Assembly: GCA_020852255.1 (NCBI GenBank)
Contig: JADZBD010000010.1
Location: 1 to 64,000, forward strand
DNA: 64,000 nucleotides
Reading direction: 5' to 3'
Source: Bacteroidia bacterium
GTDB taxonomy: Bacteria > Bacteroidota > Bacteroidia > JADZBD01
Part shown: positions 44,450-60,919 of the stretch, piece after piece
Layout: every line of letters begins with the position of its first letter
How positions within the stretch are numbered: the first letter of the stretch is position 1
Notes under the pieces: generated by a model
Database searches by the model: none
Told to the model about the DNA's origin: nothing
Seen by the model: only the letters and a program-made list of their open reading frames with translations
Position numbers and translations under genes: made by a program

Positions 44450-45161
44450 ATAAGAGTATCCCGATTCCTGCGCCGGCAAGAATAATGAGCAGTTTGATGA
44501 TATTGAACCGGTGGTTCTCGCTGGATTCGAACAAAATGGTGGTGCTTATATGCAGAAAGATTCCTACCACAAGGGCCATGGGATACCGGACGGCCGAATG
44601 CATATCCTGTACACAGGCACTAAGCCATTCACCTGCCAGTGCACCGGCCGGAGTCATGAGAGCAAACATCAGCAGCCACAGGATGGCCGTAGTTCGCCGG
44701 GTGCCACTTTGCAGAAGTAGTGTGCAGAGCGCAATGGAGATGGGAATATTATGAAGAATAATACCCGTAAAAAGAGAATGATGCGTGTGATCATCCCCCC
44801 CAAAGGTTTCCGCGAGCGGAAGTCCTTCAAGAAATGAGTGGACGGAGAGGGCAATCATCATCGTGAATGGGAAGCGCTGTTCCTGTTTGCTGTGAACATG
44901 GATGTGACCATGTTCAATTCCTTCAGAGAAAAACTCAATGATGATCTGAAGAATAAATCCTGCCAGAATAAATATTCCCACCTGGTGTTCCCCCTCGGAA
45001 TACACTTCCGGCAACAGGTGCATAATACTAACAGAAAACAGAAACGCCCCGCTGAACGCCAGCAGCAATTTCAGAATGCGGGGCTGAACCTTCACAAACA
45101 GAACAAAGGCGCCTGATAACAGGACCCCTGCAACAAGGATGATATATTCCCAAAGTCCCAT
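44448..45161 (-). CDS. ZIP family divalent metal transporter
   Basis: This 237-residue inner-membrane protein has about eight hydrophobic helices. Metal-site helices read MHLLPEVYSEGE, HSFLEGLPLAE and ILHNIPISIAL, the ZIP signature. A His-rich cytoplasmic loop (EHGHIHVHS) and DDHTHHS support zinc or iron import. Its ATG overlaps the upstream methyltransferase stop (TGATG), so the two are coupled. Metal specificity cannot be read from sequence. Confidence 0.9.
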   Translation of the reverse strand: MGLWEYIILVAGVLLSGAFVLFVKVQPRILKLLLAFSGAFLFSVSIMHLLPEVYSEGEHQVGIFILAGFILQIIIEFFSEGIEHGHIHVHSKQEQRFPFTMMIALSVHSFLEGLPLAETFGGDDHTHHSLFTGIILHNIPISIALCTLLLQSGTRRTTAILWLLMFALMTPAGALAGEWLSACVQDMHSAVRYPMALVVGIFLHISTTILFESSENHRFNIIKLLIILAGAGIGILL

Positions 45162-45889
45162 CAGGATTTTTCGGTTACAAATATAATTCTTGGAGAAGAT
45201 TCCTGACTGAATTCTTCAAGCGAATAATCACCGTATCTGGCATGAATTATAAATCCGGCCTCCTTCAGGAGTTGTTCCAGCGCCACCGGACTATGATCGG
45301 TTATAGATTCGCAGAAATGGAAAATGTGAGTGCCATGCGCAACCTGAATCTGTTTTATGATCTTCCCGTGCTCGTGCCGGCGGCGGATCGTGAAACGGAT
45401 CCCCTCGCGCTCTGTTGTTTCCTCCGGTACAAGATGATGAAGCGTAACAGCAGTATTCAGAAAGTCCAGTACCAGAAGTCCTTTCGGCTTCAGGGAATGA
45501 TAAAAATTCTGCAGAATCTTCCGGTCGTCACGCACGGTACCATATCCGAAGCTCGAGAAGATATTTAGCACCATATCGTAATAGTTCGTGCGGAAAATAC
45601 ACCGCATATCCTGAACAAGGTATTCCTCTGCGCCCGACGAGCGTTCCCGCGCAGAAAGTATGGCTTCTTCGGAAAGGTCAATGCCGGTAACACTGAAGCC
45701 AAGTCCGGCCAGCATTCTCCCGTGGCGCCCGTTTCCGCAGGGAGCGTCCAGGATGCGCGATCCCGGACTGACCGGATGAGCATGAAGGAGCGCGGTGATG
45801 AACCTGGCTGCTTCTTCATCGTTTCGGTGACGGTACAGGATGGGATAGAATTCACTGTTAAACCAGCTCTTATACCATTCATGTTCCAT
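45161..45889 (-). CDS. Class I SAM-dependent methyltransferase
   Basis: The start is ATG 45889, giving 242 residues (MEHEWYKSWFNSEFYPILY); a TTG at 45922 is less likely. Motif I ILDAPCGNGRHG, strand-2 VTGIDLS and the motif IV region YDMVLNIFSSFGYG are clear. The opening EWYKSWFNS with YPILY is typical of a conserved small-molecule methyltransferase family in Bacteroidota. The substrate is unknown. It is coupled to the ZIP transporter. Confidence 0.85.
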   Translation of the reverse strand: MEHEWYKSWFNSEFYPILYRHRNDEEAARFITALLHAHPVSPGSRILDAPCGNGRHGRMLAGLGFSVTGIDLSEEAILSARERSSGAEEYLVQDMRCIFRTNYYDMVLNIFSSFGYGTVRDDRKILQNFYHSLKPKGLLVLDFLNTAVTLHHLVPEETTEREGIRFTIRRRHEHGKIIKQIQVAHGTHIFHFCESITDHSPVALEQLLKEAGFIIHARYGDYSLEEFSQESSPRIIFVTEKS

Positions 45890-45942
45890 CCGGATCAAAG
45901 GTAAGAACCGGAGCGGTAACAATGAAGAGCGATTTCTTTTAT

Positions 45943-45955: not shown

Positions 45956-48900
45956 ATGAGGACGACTCGTCTTCCCTTCGCGTTCCGCTTATTTTTTCTT
46001 CTCATCTGTGCAGGGTGTGTGCAGGCGCAGGATCTGAAATTTTATCATCTTACAACCAAGCAGGGATTATCCCAAACCGTCATCAATTGCATGATCAAGG
46101 ATTCCAGAGGGTTCATGTGGTTTGGAACCCAGGATGGTCTGAACCGGTATGACGGATACACCTTTACGGTGTTCCGGAACGACCCTGAGGATACCAACTC
46201 CATTTCCGACAACTATATCAATTGCCTGCTGGAGGATCAAGAAGGCAGAATATGGATCGGTACCAATGTGGGAGGCTTGAATGTGTATGATCCCGTTCTG
46301 AACAGGTTTGTCCGTTACCGGCACGAGGAGAATAACGACCAGTCGCTCAGCGACAATAAAGTCTTTTGCATTATGGCCGCTCCCGGCGGCGGATTTGTGG
46401 TGGGTACGGATAATGGCCTTAATTTTTTTGACGGCGAGAGCAATCGTTTCAGACGTTACCTGGCGGAGGACACGCCAAAGGCGCTGATTGATGCCAGTAT
46501 CCGTTGTCTGGCCACCGACGAAAAAGATAACATCTGGGTTGGTACATTCAGGGGAGGGTTGCATCGCTTCCGGGCGCAGGAAGGGGTATTTGATTATTTC
46601 AGTCCGGTGGAACAGCAAATTCCCGGAGCTGTTGACAAGAGTGAGAAAATCCGGACGATTTACTGTGACAAGGATGGCTTATTCTGGATCGGAACCTATA
46701 ACGGCGGAACCTTTCTCTTTGATCCGCTGAAGGAGAAATACCTGAAATGTTTTCTTGCAGACAGCGGGCCGGAAGGGATAACCCATAACTGGGTGCTATC
46801 CTTTGCGGAAGATAAGAGGGGAATGATCTGGGTGGCAACCAACGACAGTGGTTTGTGTTTTTATAATAAGAGCACCGGCAAATTCACACGGCAGTACTCG
46901 GATGAATTCGACCCACTGGGGTTGTCCAGTAATTCCCTTTCAAGCTTATTGTGCGACGAAACCGGAAACATGTGGGTGGGCACTTCAACGAATGGGGTCA
47001 ATGTGTTTTTCAGGAACACTCTTAAGTTCAGCCATGTCCGAAGAAGAGTGGGTTCAGAAAATACTTTGCCGGACAAAATCATATACTGTGTTTACAAGGA
47101 CAAAAGCAATCAGGTTTGGTTTTGTGCCAAGGGAGCCGAGTTGAGTAAGCTGGATCTTCAAACGGGAAAGTTCACGCACTACAAGGACGTTTGCGAGGCA
47201 CAGAACAAAACGATTCTTACAATTTACGAATCTCCCAATGGGCTTTTCTACCTGGGTTCCTATGGCGGCGGAATTTCTATTTTCGATCCAGGGCAGGGCA
47301 GGGCAGTACCGATCAGAGACGATGAATTCAAGGGGGAGAAGCTTACAAATAAAACCATTCTTAATATCCGGGCAGATAAACTTGGACACCTCTGGATTTC
47401 TACCTTCGGCGGCGGCTTATTCCGGTTCGATCCGGTGAATTACGGACTGGAGGTGCTCAATGTTTCCAAAGGACTGGCGCATAACCGCGTACATTATTCC
47501 TACCAGGCATCGGACGGACTCATCTGGGTTGCCACACAAGGAGGCATTTCCGTTGTGGATCCCCTCACGTTTAAAGTGATCCGAAACTACAAGGCCGGAA
47601 ACAGCGACAGCTCCATCACTTCCAATACGGTCTACTCATTCTATCAGGATCGCCAGGGAAATATCTGGGTAGCTACGGGTATCGGGCTTAACCGCATTTC
47701 CGCGGGAGACGGGAAAATTCAAAAGTTTTACCAGAAAGACGGGATGGCGAATGATAATATTTACGGTATTCTGGAGGATAAGAAAGGAAACCTCTGGCTG
47801 AGCACCAATAAGGGAATCACCCGGTTCAATCCGGGCACGAAGAATATTAATGGTTCGGCCTTTAAAAATTATGAAGCAATTGACGGACTCGCAGAAGGTG
47901 AATATTTGCAAGGAAGCTTTTTCAAAGACGCCGTAACCGATGAGCTGTATTTCGGGGGGAACGATGGGTTTAACACGTTTCTGCCGGAAAAAATAGAGGA
48001 GAATGAGCATATACCCCCAGTATTCATTACATCATTTAAGCGTTTCGGTAAAGAAGTACAGCTGGATACAAATATTCTGTACAAAAGGTTTATAGAACTT
48101 TCTTACCGGGATAATTTCTTTTCCTTCGAATTTGTTTCACTCGACTATACTCTTCCCGGGAAGAATCTTTATTCCTACAAAATGGAAGGAGTGGATGAGG
48201 ACTGGAGCGCTCCAAGCACCATCCGCTACGCGTCTTATACCAACCTGGAGGGGGGCGACTATGTTTTCAGAGTGCGTGCTTCCAACAATGATGGTGTTTG
48301 GAATGAAGCTGGTGCAGTAATTCATATCCGGGTAATACCGCCGGTGTATAAAACAAAAACATTCTACGCGATTTGCGTAATACTGTTGCTGATTGGAATA
48401 TGGAGCTTCACCAAGTGGCGAACAAGAGCCATTGAGAAGGAGAAAAAACTGTTGGAAGATAAAGTGGCAGAACGCACCGCAGAGCTGGCGCAAAAAAACC
48501 TGGATATTATGTCCAGCATTCAGTATGCCAAGCGGATTCAGGAGGCCATCCTTCCGGAAATGAAAGAGATACGGAAACATCTGCCGGATTCGTTCGTTCT
48601 ATTCAAACCCAAGGATATTGTCAGCGGGGATTTTTATTGGTTCGGAACTAAGGGCGGAAAAAAGATCATCGCCGCAGTGGACTGTACAGGACACGGGGTA
48701 CCGGGGGCATTCATGTCTATGATCGGAAATAACCTCCTCTCACAGATCGTTATGGAAAAAGGAATTACCGATCCTGGTCTGATCCTTAATGAGCTCAATG
48801 CCGGTGTCAGGGCCGCCTTGCGCCAGGGTATTCATGAGGTGGATACAAAAGACGGGATGGATGTGGCTCTTTGTGTGATAAACCCGGAAACACGCGAAGT

Positions 48901-49258
48901 GCAGTTTTCCGGTGCTTTCCGGCCTTTGGTAATTGTGCATGAAGGCAAACTGGAAAAGGTAGACGGCACCAAATTCCCGATCGGTGGTTCCCAAATGGAC
49001 AATGAAAGAGTGTTCACTACCAGCGCCCGAACCATGGAAAAAGGTGATACTCTATATATGTTCTCAGACGGGTATGCCGACCAGTTTGGCGGAGAAAGAG
49101 GAAAGAAGTTTATGCTCAAAAAGCTGAATGAGTTGTTCCTCGCCATCCAGGAATTGGGAATGAACAGGCAGAAAGAGGAGCTGGATCAAACCATCGAAAC
49201 CTGGAGAGGTCATCATGAACAGGTGGATGACATCCTCATCATAGGGGTAAGGCTCTAA
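45956..49258 (+). CDS. Periplasmic two-component-type propeller sensor fused to a PP2C/SpoIIE phosphatase (SiaA-like output)
   Basis: This is a 1,100-residue membrane protein. The signal segment (about 1-25) is followed by about 14 Reg_prop blades (GFMWFGTQDGLNRYDGYTF, RIWIGTNVGGLNVYDP, NIWVATGIGLNRIS) forming two propellers (about 28-700), and a Y_Y_Y domain (about 715-798; YSYKMEGVDEDWS). A single transmembrane helix (about 803-820), a coiled-coil signalling helix, and a PP2C/SpoIIE Ser/Thr phosphatase (about 860-1100) follow. Metal-binding motifs are SGDFYWFG, DCTGHGVPGAFMS, SDGYADQFGG and DDILIIGV. Such propellers usually end in a histidine kinase, so here input would control dephosphorylation of a protein. 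SiaB- and SiaC-like genes nearby suggest it acts like SiaA on SiaC. Confidence 0.92.
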   Translation: MRTTRLPFAFRLFFLLICAGCVQAQDLKFYHLTTKQGLSQTVINCMIKDSRGFMWFGTQDGLNRYDGYTFTVFRNDPEDTNSISDNYINCLLEDQEGRIWIGTNVGGLNVYDPVLNRFVRYRHEENNDQSLSDNKVFCIMAAPGGGFVVGTDNGLNFFDGESNRFRRYLAEDTPKALIDASIRCLATDEKDNIWVGTFRGGLHRFRAQEGVFDYFSPVEQQIPGAVDKSEKIRTIYCDKDGLFWIGTYNGGTFLFDPLKEKYLKCFLADSGPEGITHNWVLSFAEDKRGMIWVATNDSGLCFYNKSTGKFTRQYSDEFDPLGLSSNSLSSLLCDETGNMWVGTSTNGVNVFFRNTLKFSHVRRRVGSENTLPDKIIYCVYKDKSNQVWFCAKGAELSKLDLQTGKFTHYKDVCEAQNKTILTIYESPNGLFYLGSYGGGISIFDPGQGRAVPIRDDEFKGEKLTNKTILNIRADKLGHLWISTFGGGLFRFDPVNYGLEVLNVSKGLAHNRVHYSYQASDGLIWVATQGGISVVDPLTFKVIRNYKAGNSDSSITSNTVYSFYQDRQGNIWVATGIGLNRISAGDGKIQKFYQKDGMANDNIYGILEDKKGNLWLSTNKGITRFNPGTKNINGSAFKNYEAIDGLAEGEYLQGSFFKDAVTDELYFGGNDGFNTFLPEKIEENEHIPPVFITSFKRFGKEVQLDTNILYKRFIELSYRDNFFSFEFVSLDYTLPGKNLYSYKMEGVDEDWSAPSTIRYASYTNLEGGDYVFRVRASNNDGVWNEAGAVIHIRVIPPVYKTKTFYAICVILLLIGIWSFTKWRTRAIEKEKKLLEDKVAERTAELAQKNLDIMSSIQYAKRIQEAILPEMKEIRKHLPDSFVLFKPKDIVSGDFYWFGTKGGKKIIAAVDCTGHGVPGAFMSMIGNNLLSQIVMEKGITDPGLILNELNAGVRAALRQGIHEVDTKDGMDVALCVINPETREVQFSGAFRPLVIVHEGKLEKVDGTKFPIGGSQMDNERVFTTSARTMEKGDTLYMFSDGYADQFGGERGKKFMLKKLNELFLAIQELGMNRQKEELDQTIETWRGHHEQVDDILIIGVRL

Positions 49259-49281
49259 TAATCATATATTTATATATTTAT

Positions 49282-49289
49282 TATCTTTG
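49282..49289 (+). promoter_or_regulatory. -7 box TATCTTTG for the 49340 lipoprotein gene
   Basis: It is an exact TAnnTTTG match about 50 bases upstream of the ATG. The lipoprotein is therefore probably not just read through from the phosphatase gene. Confidence 0.55.
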
Positions 49290-49339
49290 GGGGTAAACCC
49301 TCAGTTTTATATCTCGTCTTATACATTAAATCCCAACCT

Positions 49340-50155
49340 ATGAATAAGTTCATTGTTCAGTTTTCCTTTTTTGGCCTGATAGCGGGGCTGTTTCTTTTAG
49401 GCTCCTGTAAGCGGGAGGAGCTGGATACAGAAACTGTATCTACAACAGATAACGCACTTTGTGAGTCAGAATTTCTCCGGATTTTTCCGGAGGCCAATGG
49501 CATAGCCATCGGTGAGGAAGGCGTGCAGCGCGTGGTTCCCGGTTTTAGCGTGTTTTCCGTTTGTCCGAACGACAGTGTGAATCCTGCCGATACACTTGAC
49601 GGATTTCCGGTAACCCTGTTTCTGGATTTCGGTACCGGATGTGTTGGCAACGATGGAAAAACCCGGAAGGGAATGATCCGGTGCATCTTCATGAATCCCT
49701 ATGACGGGGCCGACGACACCGTAAATATTTCACTGGATAATTATTATGTGAACGATATTCATTACGAAGGAACTGTACAGGTAATACGCAGTACCAACAG
49801 CTTTACTCAAACGGTGAGCAACGGCCGTTGCACCAAATCCGGATGGGAGATCCTTTGGAGCTCCACGCGTACTTGCACCTGGGTGAGCGGCCAGAACACA
49901 CCTTCTGACCCCAATGATGATATTTTCGAGTTCACCGGTAACGCTTCAGGTACCAACCGCGAAGGAAAAACCTTCGATGTCACAATTACCAGTCCGCTCG
50001 TTCGCGGGAAGCATTGCGCCTACATTACCAAGGGTACTCTGGATATTACCCCGGAAGGAAAGAAAACCCGGACAGTTGATTTTGGCAATGGTGCCTGCGA
50101 TAATAAGGCCACGTTAACAATTAACGGGAACACGTTTCAGTTCAATCTTCAATAG
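49340..50155 (+). CDS. Lipoprotein of unknown function
   Basis: This 271-residue protein has a lipobox ending LLGSC (Cys23) followed by KREE. The mature part contains six or more cysteines and beta-rich stretches (FPVTLFLDFGTGCVGNDGK, ISLDNYYVNDIHYEG, DVTITSPLVRGKHC). I recognise no family, though similar lipoproteins are common in Bacteroidota. It lies between the phosphatase and siaB-like genes but has its own promoter and a strong terminator, so membership of the Sia-like system is unproven. Confidence 0.75.
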   Translation: MNKFIVQFSFFGLIAGLFLLGSCKREELDTETVSTTDNALCESEFLRIFPEANGIAIGEEGVQRVVPGFSVFSVCPNDSVNPADTLDGFPVTLFLDFGTGCVGNDGKTRKGMIRCIFMNPYDGADDTVNISLDNYYVNDIHYEGTVQVIRSTNSFTQTVSNGRCTKSGWEILWSSTRTCTWVSGQNTPSDPNDDIFEFTGNASGTNREGKTFDVTITSPLVRGKHCAYITKGTLDITPEGKKTRTVDFGNGACDNKATLTINGNTFQFNLQ

Positions 50156-50174
50156 ATCGTTTCAGCAAGCCTTG

Positions 50175-50201
50175 AAAGCCCCTGTTTTTAGGGGCTTTTT
50201 T
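50175..50201 (+). terminator. Rho-independent terminator after the lipoprotein
   Basis: A 9-bp stem (AAAGCCCCT / AGGGGCTTT), a 6-base loop and a T run. It separates the siaB-like/siaC-like pair from upstream genes. Confidence 0.9.
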
Positions 50202-50317
50202 GTTGATAGCCAGTCCATTAAAAAGTTTTGTATATCTGCGGAAATTCATGTAGGTTTGACAGGTTTTTCAGAAAAGGCCCTGCATCTTATTGCTTCGGCC
50301 TGAGGTAATTATCTGAT

Positions 50318-50866
50318 ATGTTGGACATCTTTGACTTTTATGATAAAATGGAGCGTAATAATATTATGCTCTCATTCAAAGGTGACATAACCTCTGAGTT
50401 GCTGACGTCCATCCTCCAGATTATGGAGTCGAAGCTGGATAACATGCAGGAAGAACCTAAGGTGAAAAGAAAGGTGTATAACGTTTTAGTAGAGTGCCTG
50501 CAGAATCTGTATCACCACATGGATGAAGTAGACAATTCGGATGTGACTTCCGACAGCGGGCGCTCCGCGATCTTTATGATTGGCCGGGTAGACAACCAGT
50601 ATAATATCATTACCGGAAATTATATCAAGGTGGATAATGTAGAGTTACTGAGGGGAAGAATTGATAAAATCAATTCCCTGAGTAAGGATGAATTAAAAGA
50701 ATATTACAAGGAAGTCCTGAACAACGGGGAGATGTCGCAGAAGGGAGGAGGGGGACTTGGCTTTATTGATATTGCCCGGAAATCAGGGGAGAAGCTGGCG
50801 TACAATTTCCTGAATGTAGATCAGAAGTATTCATTTTTTAGTTTAAACATCAAAATAGCACAATAA
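50318..50866 (+). CDS. SiaB family protein kinase (DUF6272)
   Basis: This 182-residue cytoplasmic protein has the GHKL ATP-binding layout: N-box VLVECLQNLYHHMD (about 54-67) and glycine-rich G-box QKGGGGLGFIDIARKSG (about 140-156). This matches SiaB/DUF6272. In Pseudomonas aeruginosa SiaB phosphorylates SiaC on a threonine and the PP2C phosphatase SiaA removes it. The SiaC-like gene follows after 10 bases. Upstream is a terminator, so the pair is probably transcribed separately. Confidence 0.9.
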   Translation: MLDIFDFYDKMERNNIMLSFKGDITSELLTSILQIMESKLDNMQEEPKVKRKVYNVLVECLQNLYHHMDEVDNSDVTSDSGRSAIFMIGRVDNQYNIITGNYIKVDNVELLRGRIDKINSLSKDELKEYYKEVLNNGEMSQKGGGGLGFIDIARKSGEKLAYNFLNVDQKYSFFSLNIKIAQ

Positions 50867-50876
50867 AAGCAATCGT

Positions 50877-51257
50877 ATGGAAAAGTTGACCATTGAAGGA
50901 ACTCCGAAGACCCCGACTATCAGCTTCGACTTTGGAACAGGAACACTGGAGATTAAGGGAAGATCAATTCCCGAGAACTCTATTGAATTCTACAAGCCGC
51001 TGGTTGAAACACTGGAGAAGTATTCTTCTAAACCGCAGTCGGCTACGGCCGTGAACATTCAGCTGGAATATTTTAATACCAGCTCATCCAAGTGTATACT
51101 GGATGTGTTCAAGAAGCTGGAGGCAATTCACAAGGGAGGAAGCCAGATTACCATCAACTGGTACTATGAGCAGGACGATGAGGATATGCTCGAAGCGGGA
51201 GAAGATTATCAGGCCATTATCAATGTGCCTTTCAAGATGATCCAGGTAGAGGAATAA
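50877..51257 (+). CDS. SiaC family regulatory phosphoprotein (DUF1987)
   Basis: This 126-residue protein has an SiaC-type alpha/beta fold. The conserved phosphorylation region reads LEYFNTSSSKC, with threonine at position 68, the same number as the phosphorylated Thr68 of P. aeruginosa SiaC. In that species unphosphorylated SiaC binds and activates the diguanylate cyclase SiaD. No GGDEF gene exists in this window, and c-di-GMP is uncommon in Bacteroidota, so its target here is unknown. It is followed by a terminator. Confidence 0.92.
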   Translation: MEKLTIEGTPKTPTISFDFGTGTLEIKGRSIPENSIEFYKPLVETLEKYSSKPQSATAVNIQLEYFNTSSSKCILDVFKKLEAIHKGGSQITINWYYEQDDEDMLEAGEDYQAIINVPFKMIQVEE

Positions 51258-56482: not shown

Positions 56483-57373
56483 ATGAATTTAAAACCCCTG
56501 AAGATCTCGGCCACCTTCCTGGCACTTTTCGCGTTTTCTTTCACCGGATGCGGACCGGGCGAGGAAGGCAACGGCACAGACGATGGTCCGAAAGACAGTA
56601 CATCCGTGATAACGGTATCGGTGGATGGCAAGATATTTTCCATTCCATCTCCTATTCAGACAGCTATGCTCATCAAGCGTTCAGGAGCCGGCTACAATAA
56701 AGGATTTCTGAATCCGGCGGATAAAGTGAATGGGTATTCCATGCAAATGCAGAAGGCCCTTAATCTGGGGGTGTTCGGTGCTGATCTCGGATATGTAACG
56801 ATGTATGATCAGAATCAGGATGCAATCGCCTATTTCCAGGCTGCCCAGAAACTGGCAGACGATCTGGGAGTAAGCGGCGCATTTGACAAAGCGCTGATCG
56901 AGCGATTCAAAACCAATATCGGGAAACAGGATTCCATGCTGGTGCTTGTGTCCACAGCCTACCGGTCTGCAGATAATTTTCTGAAGAATAATGACAAGAA
57001 TGCTATCGGCGCACTCATTATTACCGGAGGATGGATTGAGTCACTCCATTTTGCCGTGAATGTTAATAAGGATAAAACCAATGAAGAAGTAAAGCAGCGA
57101 ATCGCTGAGCAGAAAATATCCATTGGAAACCTGATCGGTCTGCTTGAAACCTACGCCGGACAGGAGGAATACAGCGAGATTCTCAACGGATTGCGTGAAC
57201 TTAAAAGCGATTTCGACAAGGTAGAGTACAAATATGTTTATGAAAAGCCCGTCACCGACGAAGGAAATAAGCTGACCACTTTCAACAGTAAGACTACAGT
57301 GAACATTACACCGGAACAACTTGCTTCGATCACTGCAAAAGTGGAAAGCCTGAGAGCTCTTATTGTTGAATAA
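56483..57373 (+). CDS. Lipoprotein of unknown function, helical
   Basis: This 296-residue protein has a lipobox ending SFTGC (Cys23) followed by an acidic GPGEEGNGTDDG stretch. The remainder looks largely alpha-helical with conserved-looking KRSGAGYNKGFLNPADKV and LNLGVFGADLGYVTMYDQ. I have no family assignment, although similar lipoproteins occur in many Bacteroidota. It is followed 21 bases later by the small exported protein and then the ABC transporter, so the three are probably one unit. Confidence 0.8.
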   Translation: MNLKPLKISATFLALFAFSFTGCGPGEEGNGTDDGPKDSTSVITVSVDGKIFSIPSPIQTAMLIKRSGAGYNKGFLNPADKVNGYSMQMQKALNLGVFGADLGYVTMYDQNQDAIAYFQAAQKLADDLGVSGAFDKALIERFKTNIGKQDSMLVLVSTAYRSADNFLKNNDKNAIGALIITGGWIESLHFAVNVNKDKTNEEVKQRIAEQKISIGNLIGLLETYAGQEEYSEILNGLRELKSDFDKVEYKYVYEKPVTDEGNKLTTFNSKTTVNITPEQLASITAKVESLRALIVE

Positions 57374-57847: not shown

Positions 57848-60800
57848 ATGAGTGAGCGGATCCTAAAAGCGCTAATGCAACTCTTCGCTATTATTGCGAA
57901 GGTTGACGGCGTAACTTCCTCCAGCCGGGGTATTGTTCAGACTTTTCTTAAGCAGTTACTCAGCAATGAGCAGGTAGAAGCTTATCTGAAAATTTTTGAT
58001 GAGTTTCTGGAGGCACACCACCAGGTTTCGAAACGGAAAGACGGAAGTGCGAAGCGCACTTCGCTCAACTCCGTGAAGGTACTCAAGATCTGCACGCAGA
58101 TCAATGCCGAACTGGAACAGAAGCAGAAGATTGTTGTACTCGTCCGGCTGATCGAGTTTATCCATTCCTCCAACGAAATCTCGGAACAGGAACTGGAATT
58201 TGTTCAAACCGTGGCGGAGACCTTTAACGTAGAAAGTGAGGAGTTCAAGCGTATACTTGGATTTATTCAAAGCCCGGAGAGTCAGGTTCCCGATTCCGCC
58301 AGCACGCTGGTTGTTGATCACCACAAGGAGAATCCTTATCAGCTGTCGCGGCATATTCATTCCGAAGGAATGAACGGACATCTTCGGGTGCTGTACATTG
58401 ATTCCGTGGACATGTACATCATCATGTATTTCGGCACAAGTGATCTGCTGCTGAATGGGCAGAACATTGCACCGTCAAAGGTTTACATCCTAACCCCAGG
58501 TTCTTCCATCCGTTCTTCTAAAGTAGCTCCGGTCTATTATTCGGATATTCTGGCGGCCTACCTGACCGATAAAACCAAGGCCAGGATATCTTTCGTAACC
58601 CGGAACCTTGATTACAAATTTAAGAACGGTAAACTCGGACTTCGAAACATAAATATTACAGAGGAGAGCGGAAAGCTCATTGGGATCATGGGAGGTTCCG
58701 GTGCAGGAAAATCAACCCTTCTCAACGTATTGAATGGCCAGGAGACTCCCAGCGGGGGGGCGGTGCTGATCAACGGAAAGAACATTCATACCCAGCGCAG
58801 GGAGGTGATGGGAGTGATCGGACACGTTTCACAGGACGACCTTCTTATTGAAGAGCTCACCGTTTTCCAAAACCTTTTTTATAATGCCAAGCTTTGTTTC
58901 GGGAATCTCTCGGATGCAGAGATCACAGAAAAGGTAAACAAAGTGCTGATGGATCTCGGGTTGTTTGAGAAAAAGGATTTGAAGGTCGGTAATCCCCTGG
59001 AGAAAACTATTTCCGGCGGGCAGCGGAAGCGTTTGAACATCGCGCTTGAACTGATCCGGGAACCCAATGTGCTGTATGTGGATGAGCCTACATCTGGTCT
59101 CTCTTCCCGCGATTCGGAGAATATAATGGACCTCCTGAAGGAACTGGCCCTGAAGGGAAAACTGCTCTTTGTGGTGATCCACCAGCCCTCTTCCGAAATC
59201 TTTAAAATGTTTGATAAGCTCATTATCCTTGATGTGGGCGGATATCCCATCTACTATGGCAATCCTGTAGATGGTGTGATCTACTTTAAGCATGCGATCA
59301 ATCACGTGACGGCCAATATCAGTGAATGTGTGGAATGCGGTAACGTGAACCCGGAACAGATTTTTAATATTATTGAAACAAAGGTGGTGGACGAATACGG
59401 CGGGCTTACCAACAACCGTAAGATCTCTCCGCCGGAATGGAATGAGCTGTACAGGGAAAAGATCGAGTCTAAAATTCCTCTGATCGAAGAGCATACTGAA
59501 ATACCTCCGGCTACATTCAAGATCCCGAACAAGATCAGTCAGTTCATGGTGTTCATGATCAGGGACGTAAAAGCGAAGCTTACCAACACGCAGTACCTTG
59601 TTATTAATCTCTGCGAAGCACCGCTGCTGGCATTCATACTCGCCTACCTTGTGCGGTATTACGATACGGATATTTCCAATACCCTTGGTTATATCTTCAG
59701 GGAAAATGCGAACCTTCCTGCATATCTTTTCATGTCGGTGATCGTGGCCCTGTTCATTGGTCTTACCGTATCCGCTGAGGAGATCATCCGGGACCGGAAG
59801 ATTCAGAAGCGGGAATCCTTTCTTAACCTCAGCCGCAGCAGTTATTTATTGAGCAAGATCAGTATCATGTTTGTGCTTTCCGGCATTCAAACCATCTGTT
59901 TTGTGATTGTTGGCAATCTGATCCTCGATATACGCGGGATGTATTTTGACTACTGGCTGGTGCTTTTCTCTACCTCCTGTTTTGCAAACATGCTGGGACT
60001 GAATATATCTTCGGCCTTCAATTCCGCGGTTACCATTTATATTCTGATTCCCTTCCTTCTGATTCCTCAGTTATTGCTCAGCGGTGTAATTGTAAAGTTT
60101 CATAAACTGAATCCCACGATCACCAGCCAGAAGAACGTACCGGTTACCGGAGAGGTAATGGCATCGCGGTGGGCCTTTGAAGCGCTGGCAGTAAATCAAT
60201 TCATTAATAACGATTTTGAAAGGCAGTTCTACCCCTACGAAAAGGCTATCAGCTATGCAGATTTCAAGAAAAACTACTGGCTGAGTAAGCTGCGTGCAAA
60301 ACTGGAGGGATGTGAATCCATTCTGAATGATCCGGCGAAGAAGGATCAGCTGGCCGCAGACCTGCAATTATTGCATGATGAGCTGGCAGCGGAAACCAAG
60401 AGGATAAAGAATGTGAAATTCCCCGAGCTGGAAATGCTGATGCCGGGAAAGTTCAGTTCTTCTGTTGCCGATGGGGTGAAATCGTATTTTGATCAGATCA
60501 ACAAGATCTACATCAAGCGATCCAACGAGAACAGTAATGAAAAAGATAAAATTGTTGCAGGGAAAGTAAAAACGGAGGCATCTAAAGAAGAGTTCCTGGC
60601 GCTGAAGAACGCCTATGAAAATGAGTCGCTCAACGACCTTGTTAAGAACGGAACGGAAATGGACCGGATTATTGAAAAGGATGGCGAGATTATTCAGCGT
60701 GCCGATCCCATATTTCTTGACCCCGAAGGATTTAAATCTCACTTTTTTGCACCGAGGAAAAAGGTCTTCGGTAAGTACTACGATACATACTGGGTGAATA

Positions 60801-60919
60801 TCGGAGTAATCTGGATGATGAGTATTACCCTTGCGGTAACGCTGTATTTCGATTTGCTCAAGAAGCTGCTGGACTGGATGGGGGATGTGTTCTCCCGTTT
60901 CGGAAAAAAGCCTGCCTGA
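57848..60919 (+). CDS. ABC transporter with TerB-like N-terminus, ABCG-type ATPase and membrane domain
   Basis: This is a 1,023-residue protein. Residues about 1-150 are an acidic helical TerB-like domain (LFAIIAKVDGVTSSSRGIV). Residues about 180-260 are beta-rich and FHA- or cyclic-nucleotide-domain-like. The ATPase (about 265-480) has GGSGAGKST, a Q-loop near VSQDD, the signature ISGGQRKR, Walker B VLYVDEPTSGL and switch His in VVIHQPSSE. The ABC2-type membrane domain (about 590-770) and a long charged segment before a last helix follow. The layout resembles eukaryotic ABCG half-transporters (ATPase first) with added regulatory domains. The substrate is unknown. Confidence 0.88.
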   Translation: MSERILKALMQLFAIIAKVDGVTSSSRGIVQTFLKQLLSNEQVEAYLKIFDEFLEAHHQVSKRKDGSAKRTSLNSVKVLKICTQINAELEQKQKIVVLVRLIEFIHSSNEISEQELEFVQTVAETFNVESEEFKRILGFIQSPESQVPDSASTLVVDHHKENPYQLSRHIHSEGMNGHLRVLYIDSVDMYIIMYFGTSDLLLNGQNIAPSKVYILTPGSSIRSSKVAPVYYSDILAAYLTDKTKARISFVTRNLDYKFKNGKLGLRNINITEESGKLIGIMGGSGAGKSTLLNVLNGQETPSGGAVLINGKNIHTQRREVMGVIGHVSQDDLLIEELTVFQNLFYNAKLCFGNLSDAEITEKVNKVLMDLGLFEKKDLKVGNPLEKTISGGQRKRLNIALELIREPNVLYVDEPTSGLSSRDSENIMDLLKELALKGKLLFVVIHQPSSEIFKMFDKLIILDVGGYPIYYGNPVDGVIYFKHAINHVTANISECVECGNVNPEQIFNIIETKVVDEYGGLTNNRKISPPEWNELYREKIESKIPLIEEHTEIPPATFKIPNKISQFMVFMIRDVKAKLTNTQYLVINLCEAPLLAFILAYLVRYYDTDISNTLGYIFRENANLPAYLFMSVIVALFIGLTVSAEEIIRDRKIQKRESFLNLSRSSYLLSKISIMFVLSGIQTICFVIVGNLILDIRGMYFDYWLVLFSTSCFANMLGLNISSAFNSAVTIYILIPFLLIPQLLLSGVIVKFHKLNPTITSQKNVPVTGEVMASRWAFEALAVNQFINNDFERQFYPYEKAISYADFKKNYWLSKLRAKLEGCESILNDPAKKDQLAADLQLLHDELAAETKRIKNVKFPELEMLMPGKFSSSVADGVKSYFDQINKIYIKRSNENSNEKDKIVAGKVKTEASKEEFLALKNAYENESLNDLVKNGTEMDRIIEKDGEIIQRADPIFLDPEGFKSHFFAPRKKVFGKYYDTYWVNIGVIWMMSITLAVTLYFDLLKKLLDWMGDVFSRFGKKPA

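Follow-up and report, generated by a model that had tools for sequence, protein, structure and literature searches.

A periplasmic propeller sensor ending in a SiaA-like phosphatase precedes a SiaB-SiaC pair in Bacteroidota

The stretch of DNA analysed here (the window) comprises 64,000 nucleotides, C10:1-64000, from the 3.28 Mb genome of a Bacteroidia bacterium assembled in 28 contigs. It carries four genes on the same strand, separated by gaps of 81, 162 and 10 bases, which encode a propeller sensor phosphatase, a lipoprotein, a kinase of the SiaB family and a phosphoprotein of the SiaC family:

45956..49258, + strand: propeller sensor phosphatase, 1100 amino acids (aa), assigned from Pfam domains, structure matches and motifs
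49340..50155, + strand: conserved module lipoprotein, 271 aa, with lipobox Cys23; no Pfam or NCBIfam family
50318..50866, + strand: SiaB family kinase (DUF6272), 182 aa; DUF6272 match at 3.8e-44, with N box and glycine box
50877..51257, + strand: SiaC phosphoprotein, 126 aa; PF09345 match at 5.6e-46, with T68 in YFNTSS

The sensor phosphatase begins with a signal peptide (residues ~1-25), which is followed by Reg_prop blades (54-617, 2.5e-59), a Y_Y_Y domain (730-793, 2.2e-18), a single transmembrane (TM) helix (~802-820), a coiled-coil linker (833-867) and a PP2C region (891-1099), within which SpoIIE is matched at residues 901-1099 (1.8e-19). A Pfam scan of the protein found no histidine kinase, receiver, helix-turn-helix (HTH) or HAMP domain. 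The Pfam domains thus confirm what an earlier note had read from the DNA, namely that a Reg_prop/Y_Y_Y sensor ends here in a PP2C/SpoIIE domain instead of a histidine kinase. Propeller sensors are a hallmark input of Bacteroidota histidine kinases. The sensor part matches the solved periplasmic structure 4a2l of a hybrid two-component system (HTCS) at 1e-112. The PP2C domain finds SiaA (6k4e) as its best PDB match (1.5e-35), with the next match at 1e-3; the NCBIfam SiaA model covers only residues 825-1099 and scores 191.9 bits, below its cut-off of 700. The motifs of a PP2C phosphatase are present as GDFYW (891), VDCTGHGVPGA (908), FSDG (1036) and DD (1091). In the propeller phosphatases of related modules, GDFY and SDG are found in 63/63 proteins, GHGVPGA in 61/63 and the last DD in 62/63; judged by these motifs, the metal-binding aspartates are retained. 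In two loci (L134:2862-6259 and L205:3052-6449) the propeller phosphatase is read in two overlapping frames with the break within the PP2C part, the result of a frameshift or of a sequencing error.

The linker is constant. From LExKVxERT to xILP it measures exactly 31 residues in 55/55 measurable module proteins; the same span takes 38 residues in SiaA, and 38 or 45 in the other PP2Cs of this genome. These lengths differ by whole heptads, as predicted for PPM phosphatases, in which a coiled-coil linker couples the sensor to the phosphatase dimer (PMC12143880). The PP2C domains of the modules form one clade (support 94 by the Shimodaira-Hasegawa-like approximate likelihood ratio test, SH-aLRT, in one tree and 83/95 in the other). 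The approximately unbiased (AU) test rejected a tree that places every propeller phosphatase in one clade (p 0.0004), so that the fusion of propeller and phosphatase was made or reshuffled more than once. For the three SiaC-linked propeller phosphatases of this genome a single clade was not rejected (AU p 0.15), and their independent origins are not demonstrated.

The SiaB and SiaC proteins have counterparts in Pseudomonas aeruginosa, where SiaC is phosphorylated on Thr68 by SiaB and dephosphorylated by SiaA (PMC7647112). The DUF6272 protein matches SiaB (6kko_A) at 4.6e-16 in a PDB sequence search and scores 176 bits with the NCBIfam SiaB_fam_kinase model, above the cut-off of 85. Its catalytic E59/N63 (N box) and GGGGLG (143-148) are invariant in 22 aligned proteins, whose mean identity is 77%; in P. 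aeruginosa, catalysis by SiaB is predicted to depend on Glu61, and the PP2C of SiaA is dimeric (PMC7647112). The SiaC protein matches 6kko_C at 2.3e-21 and has its threonine (YFNTSS) at the same residue number, 68, as the P. aeruginosa phosphosite; the motif NT[SA]S is present in 188/200 SiaC proteins. Its score of 100.7 bits is under the cut-off of the NCBIfam SiaC equivalog (150), while that with the broader Pfam SiaC family is over the cut-off (155.5 bits; 24.5). Some relatives of these proteins depart from the pattern. Orphan SiaC genes with no neighbouring SiaB are found in this genome (contig C16, L046:9193-9651, - strand) and in genome G001 (C66, L090:9827-10231, - strand), thus in both genomes of the family; both read FFNISSS, in which Ile replaces the phosphorylated Thr68, and their products are possibly phospho-blind. 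Beside another SiaC gene of this genome lies a gene (C18, L043:9981-11096, - strand) with two DUF6272 matches, that is, two fused SiaB domains, and a similar double fusion is suggested by the length of the 366-aa SiaB in L108 and L233.

The arrangement is by no means confined to this genome. SiaC was found in 114/197 genomes of the class, and SiaC/SiaB loci were taken from 102 genomes; a scan with the SiaB alignment gave a second set of 80 loci. The two sets share some loci, so their counts are not independent; the related loci come mostly from Bacteroidota metagenome genomes. SiaB and SiaC genes are nearly always adjacent in the loci from the 102 genomes, and in 18 of these genomes, belonging to 8 families, the propeller phosphatase and the lipoprotein lie directly upstream of the pair. 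The full four-gene order is present in 44-45 of the 80 scan loci, depending on the treatment of one overlapping start, and several of those lacking it end at contig edges. Median gaps in the module are 79, 122 and 13 bases. In a combined count of 186 SiaC/SiaB loci, 65/67 propeller-PP2Cs share the strand of SiaB and precede it by less than 1.5 kb; the remaining 2 are the split-frame copies in the equivalent place, and none of the 67 is on the strand opposite to SiaB. In a tree of SiaB-SiaC the loci with the module group together, with 17 changes where shuffles give 45; most of them fall in a single large section, with losses scattered among them. The co-occurrence of the three genes in relatives, which the earlier note had expected, is therefore found, and together with the retained phosphosite and active-site residues it supports the proposal of a Bacteroidota SiaABC-like set with a propeller-built phosphatase. 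The note had also placed the SiaB- and SiaC-like genes within about 1 kb of the sensor; SiaB does start 1,060 bases past the end of the sensor gene, but the interval holds the 271-aa lipoprotein gene that had been missed. In other families, PAS/GAF-type PP2Cs lie directly upstream of SiaBC (L146, L164, L189), which marks the sensor as the variable part. An extra phosphatase gene of 420-480 aa precedes the propeller phosphatase in L116:1195-2604, L150:1668-2939, L195:1507-2943, L203:1753-3150 and similar loci; in L150 a domain scan identifies it as a PAS-PP2C. One contig labelled Candidatus Saccharibacteria (L249) bears a Bacteroidota-type SiaB-SiaC pair, probably through an error of binning or labelling.

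Three known systems invite comparison. The SiaABC(D) system of P. aeruginosa (PMC7647112, PMC8457831) shares the PP2C, the SiaB kinase, Thr68 of SiaC and the order A-B-C, and the same type of helical linker precedes its phosphatase. However, SiaA has a two-TM HAMP region in place of Reg_prop/Y_Y_Y and one TM helix, and the module described here has an extra lipoprotein gene, a linker one heptad shorter and, in this genome, neither SiaD nor any other GGDEF protein. With the HTCS sensors of Bacteroidetes (PDB 4a2l, 3v9f, 3ott) the module shares the periplasmic propeller, Y_Y_Y and the single TM helix, whereas its effector is a Ser/Thr phosphatase and not a histidine kinase with a receiver and an AraC-type DNA-binding domain, and no SusC/SusD genes lie near it. 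Phosphatases of the RsbU/RsbP/SpoIIE type likewise combine an N-terminal sensor, a coiled coil and a dimeric PPM phosphatase with a kinase/phosphoprotein switch; yet their listed inputs are PAS, receiver, GAF and HAMP, with no propellers among them (PMC12143880), and the phosphoprotein here is SiaC (DUF1987) and not a STAS anti-anti-sigma factor. By whole-protein definitions the module is thus neither a SiaABCD system (other sensor, no SiaD) nor an HTCS (no kinase); it probably works like a SiaABC switch with an HTCS-type input. We found no paper on propeller-SpoIIE proteins or SiaBC in Bacteroidota in the open literature, outside which most subscription journals fall, so that 'unreported' is provisional.

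The earlier note had supposed a polysaccharide-type input. This is unsupported: none of the flanking genes scanned encodes SusC/SusD or a glycoside hydrolase, and Reg_prop/Y_Y_Y propeller sensors define a fold and not a class of ligand. As for the output, P. aeruginosa SiaC activates the cyclase SiaD (PMC8457831), but searches for GGDEF domains, with positive controls, found none in this genome and none in 20 module genomes (0/1 and 0/20). An output through cyclic di-GMP (c-di-GMP) was accordingly rejected, and SiaC must act on something other than a GGDEF cyclase. The earlier comparison with SiaABC holds for the gene set; it overlooked the absence of the known SiaC output.

We consider it likely that the module couples an HTCS-type envelope sensor to a SiaABC partner switch acting on Thr68 of SiaC, with a target that is not a diguanylate cyclase. 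A SiaA-like PP2C occupies the position that a histidine kinase normally has in an HTCS-type transmembrane propeller sensor. Binding of a periplasmic signal, possibly involving the neighbouring lipoprotein, would alter the paired sensors, and the phosphatase dimer would receive this movement via the single TM helix and the coiled coil with its heptad spacing. The activated phosphatase would then take off the phosphate placed by SiaB on Thr68, and unphosphorylated SiaC would bind and control its target. The direction of the signal, the action of the phosphatase on this SiaC and the role of the lipoprotein are what we infer in this scheme, by which an external signal probably leads to loss of the SiaC phosphate, with no part for the second messenger that is under SiaC control elsewhere.

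A speculative candidate for such a target lies among the flanking genes:

45161..45922, - strand: methyltransferase; divergent flanking gene, conserved beside SiaBC in about 45 loci
56483..57373, + strand: lipoprotein-like gene; like the TerB-ABC gene, which it accompanies, a conserved neighbour of SiaBC in many families; may be an associate of the system
57848..60919, + strand: TerB - FHA-like fold - ABC (ATP-binding cassette) ATPase - ABC2 membrane protein, 1023 aa, from the neighbourhood survey and fold search

The methyltransferase is probably not part of the system. The TerB-ABC gene neighbours SiaBC in about 30 surveyed loci from many families, usually convergent to it and less than 1 kb away, and on the same strand in family f15. 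When its N-terminal 264 residues were modelled (predicted local distance difference test, pLDDT, 81.6), the fold matches in the PDB were mostly FHA domains, with a best E of 4e-3 and probability up to 1.00; FHA was seen by this fold search only, being detected by neither Pfam nor NCBIfam, and the canonical FHA Gly-Arg is not evident by eye. FHA domains read phosphothreonine, as does that of the mycobacterial ABC protein Rv1747 (PMC5549992). The TerB-ABC protein may, speculatively, be a candidate output of SiaC. The fullest version of this idea, a c-di-GMP-free, envelope-sensing Thr-phosphorylation circuit in which the propeller phosphatase, with the lipoprotein as a gauge of ligand or stress, sets the state of SiaC, and SiaC or phospho-SiaC controls the TerB-FHA-like-ABC exporter by contact, an exporter comparable to Rv1747, whose partner carries phosphothreonine, strikes us as quite improbable.

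Several observations weigh against a dedicated pairing of the propeller phosphatase with SiaC. Most SiaB-SiaC pairs have no phosphatase gene next to them (57/106 surveyed loci), so SiaBC can do without such a neighbour. Nearly all of the 38 SpoIIE domains of this genome score as SiaA-like, and that of the sensor ranks about 22nd of the 38; likeness to SiaA was therefore rejected as proof of a SiaC substrate, and the case for SiaC rests on gene context and not on domain sequence. Two small STAS proteins offer alternative substrates. The genome in fact holds a many-to-few phosphatase network, with 38 SpoIIE domains (8 in propeller fusions, at least one on TPR repeats) for six SiaC and these two STAS proteins; it has 5 DUF6272 proteins, a third STAS domain within a 565-aa open reading frame and one strong RsbW-like match. 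All this, together with SiaBC loci that have PAS/GAF- or cache-type PP2Cs or none at all, and with the extra PP2C genes that several genomes carry upstream of the module, would fit a hub in which the six SiaCs are shared by the 38 PP2C sensors, many of which have TPR repeats or another input, and the propeller sensor is just one of many. We regard such a hub as unlikely, since one orthologous propeller-PP2C is position-locked with SiaBC, which argues for a preferred pairing. Moreover, 3/6 SiaC genes adjoin a propeller fusion (at the studied locus, in the order SiaB-SiaC-propeller phosphatase on C8 (L042), and as propeller phosphatase-SiaC without SiaB on C2 (L044)), whereas the other 30 SpoIIE genes are all more than 5 kb away from any SiaC gene. 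By a hand calculation this adjacency is beyond chance (56/8436 = 0.007).

The phosphatase and SiaBC could also be mere neighbours, sharing a conserved order (methyltransferase - sensor - lipoprotein - SiaB - SiaC - ABC) with no mutual action, given that conservation extends to the flanking methyltransferase and ABC genes and that many genomes keep SiaBC with those flanks but without the sensor. This is very improbable in view of the common strand, the short gaps and the complete lack of the opposite orientation; in addition, the two more propeller-PP2Cs of this genome adjoin their SiaC genes in other contexts, and PAS/GAF-PP2Cs fill the place directly upstream of SiaBC in other families. A further alternative concerns the fourth gene only and is compatible with action of the sensor phosphatase on SiaC: the lipoprotein may be a passenger or unrelated cargo outside the switch, which is possible, though we lean against it. 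It was rejected as a phosphatase-specific family, its paralogues elsewhere being mostly not beside phosphatases, and a few loci have the sensor and SiaBC without the lipoprotein, or the lipoprotein and SiaBC without the sensor. On the other hand, nearly every copy keeps its place after the sensor and before SiaB, as measured in 60 modules from different families, despite a mean identity of about 40%.

Lipobox Cys23, C226 and C253 are invariant in this lipoprotein family, and a confident AlphaFold2 model (pLDDT 87.8) is beta-rich, with no significant match among PDB structures. In the lipoprotein of the window, the sequence CKREE is close to the surface-export signal of lipoproteins, C-x-K-(D/E)2 (PMC5080379), but surface exposure is uncertain, because the strict form, in which Lys or Arg was accepted, is found in only 16/85 family members. 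A paralogue (L271:9401-10324; C2:142460-143317 of this genome) lies two genes downstream of a GroES/GroEL-like pair, and likewise in G001 (L273). Within the likely scheme of a propeller-driven SiaABC switch, the propeller may sense the lipoprotein as its partner or as a load.

It therefore appears that the propeller input so typical of Bacteroidota histidine kinases here feeds a Ser/Thr phosphatase and a SiaB-SiaC switch, in an arrangement that is old and conserved. The modular exchange of sensors that has been proposed among kinases, cyclases and phosphatases now extends to the periplasmic propeller. The absence of GGDEF domains raises the question of what SiaC controls in Bacteroidota, where the SiaB-SiaC pair is strongly conserved, and the lipoprotein and the candidate transporter are now at hand for testing.

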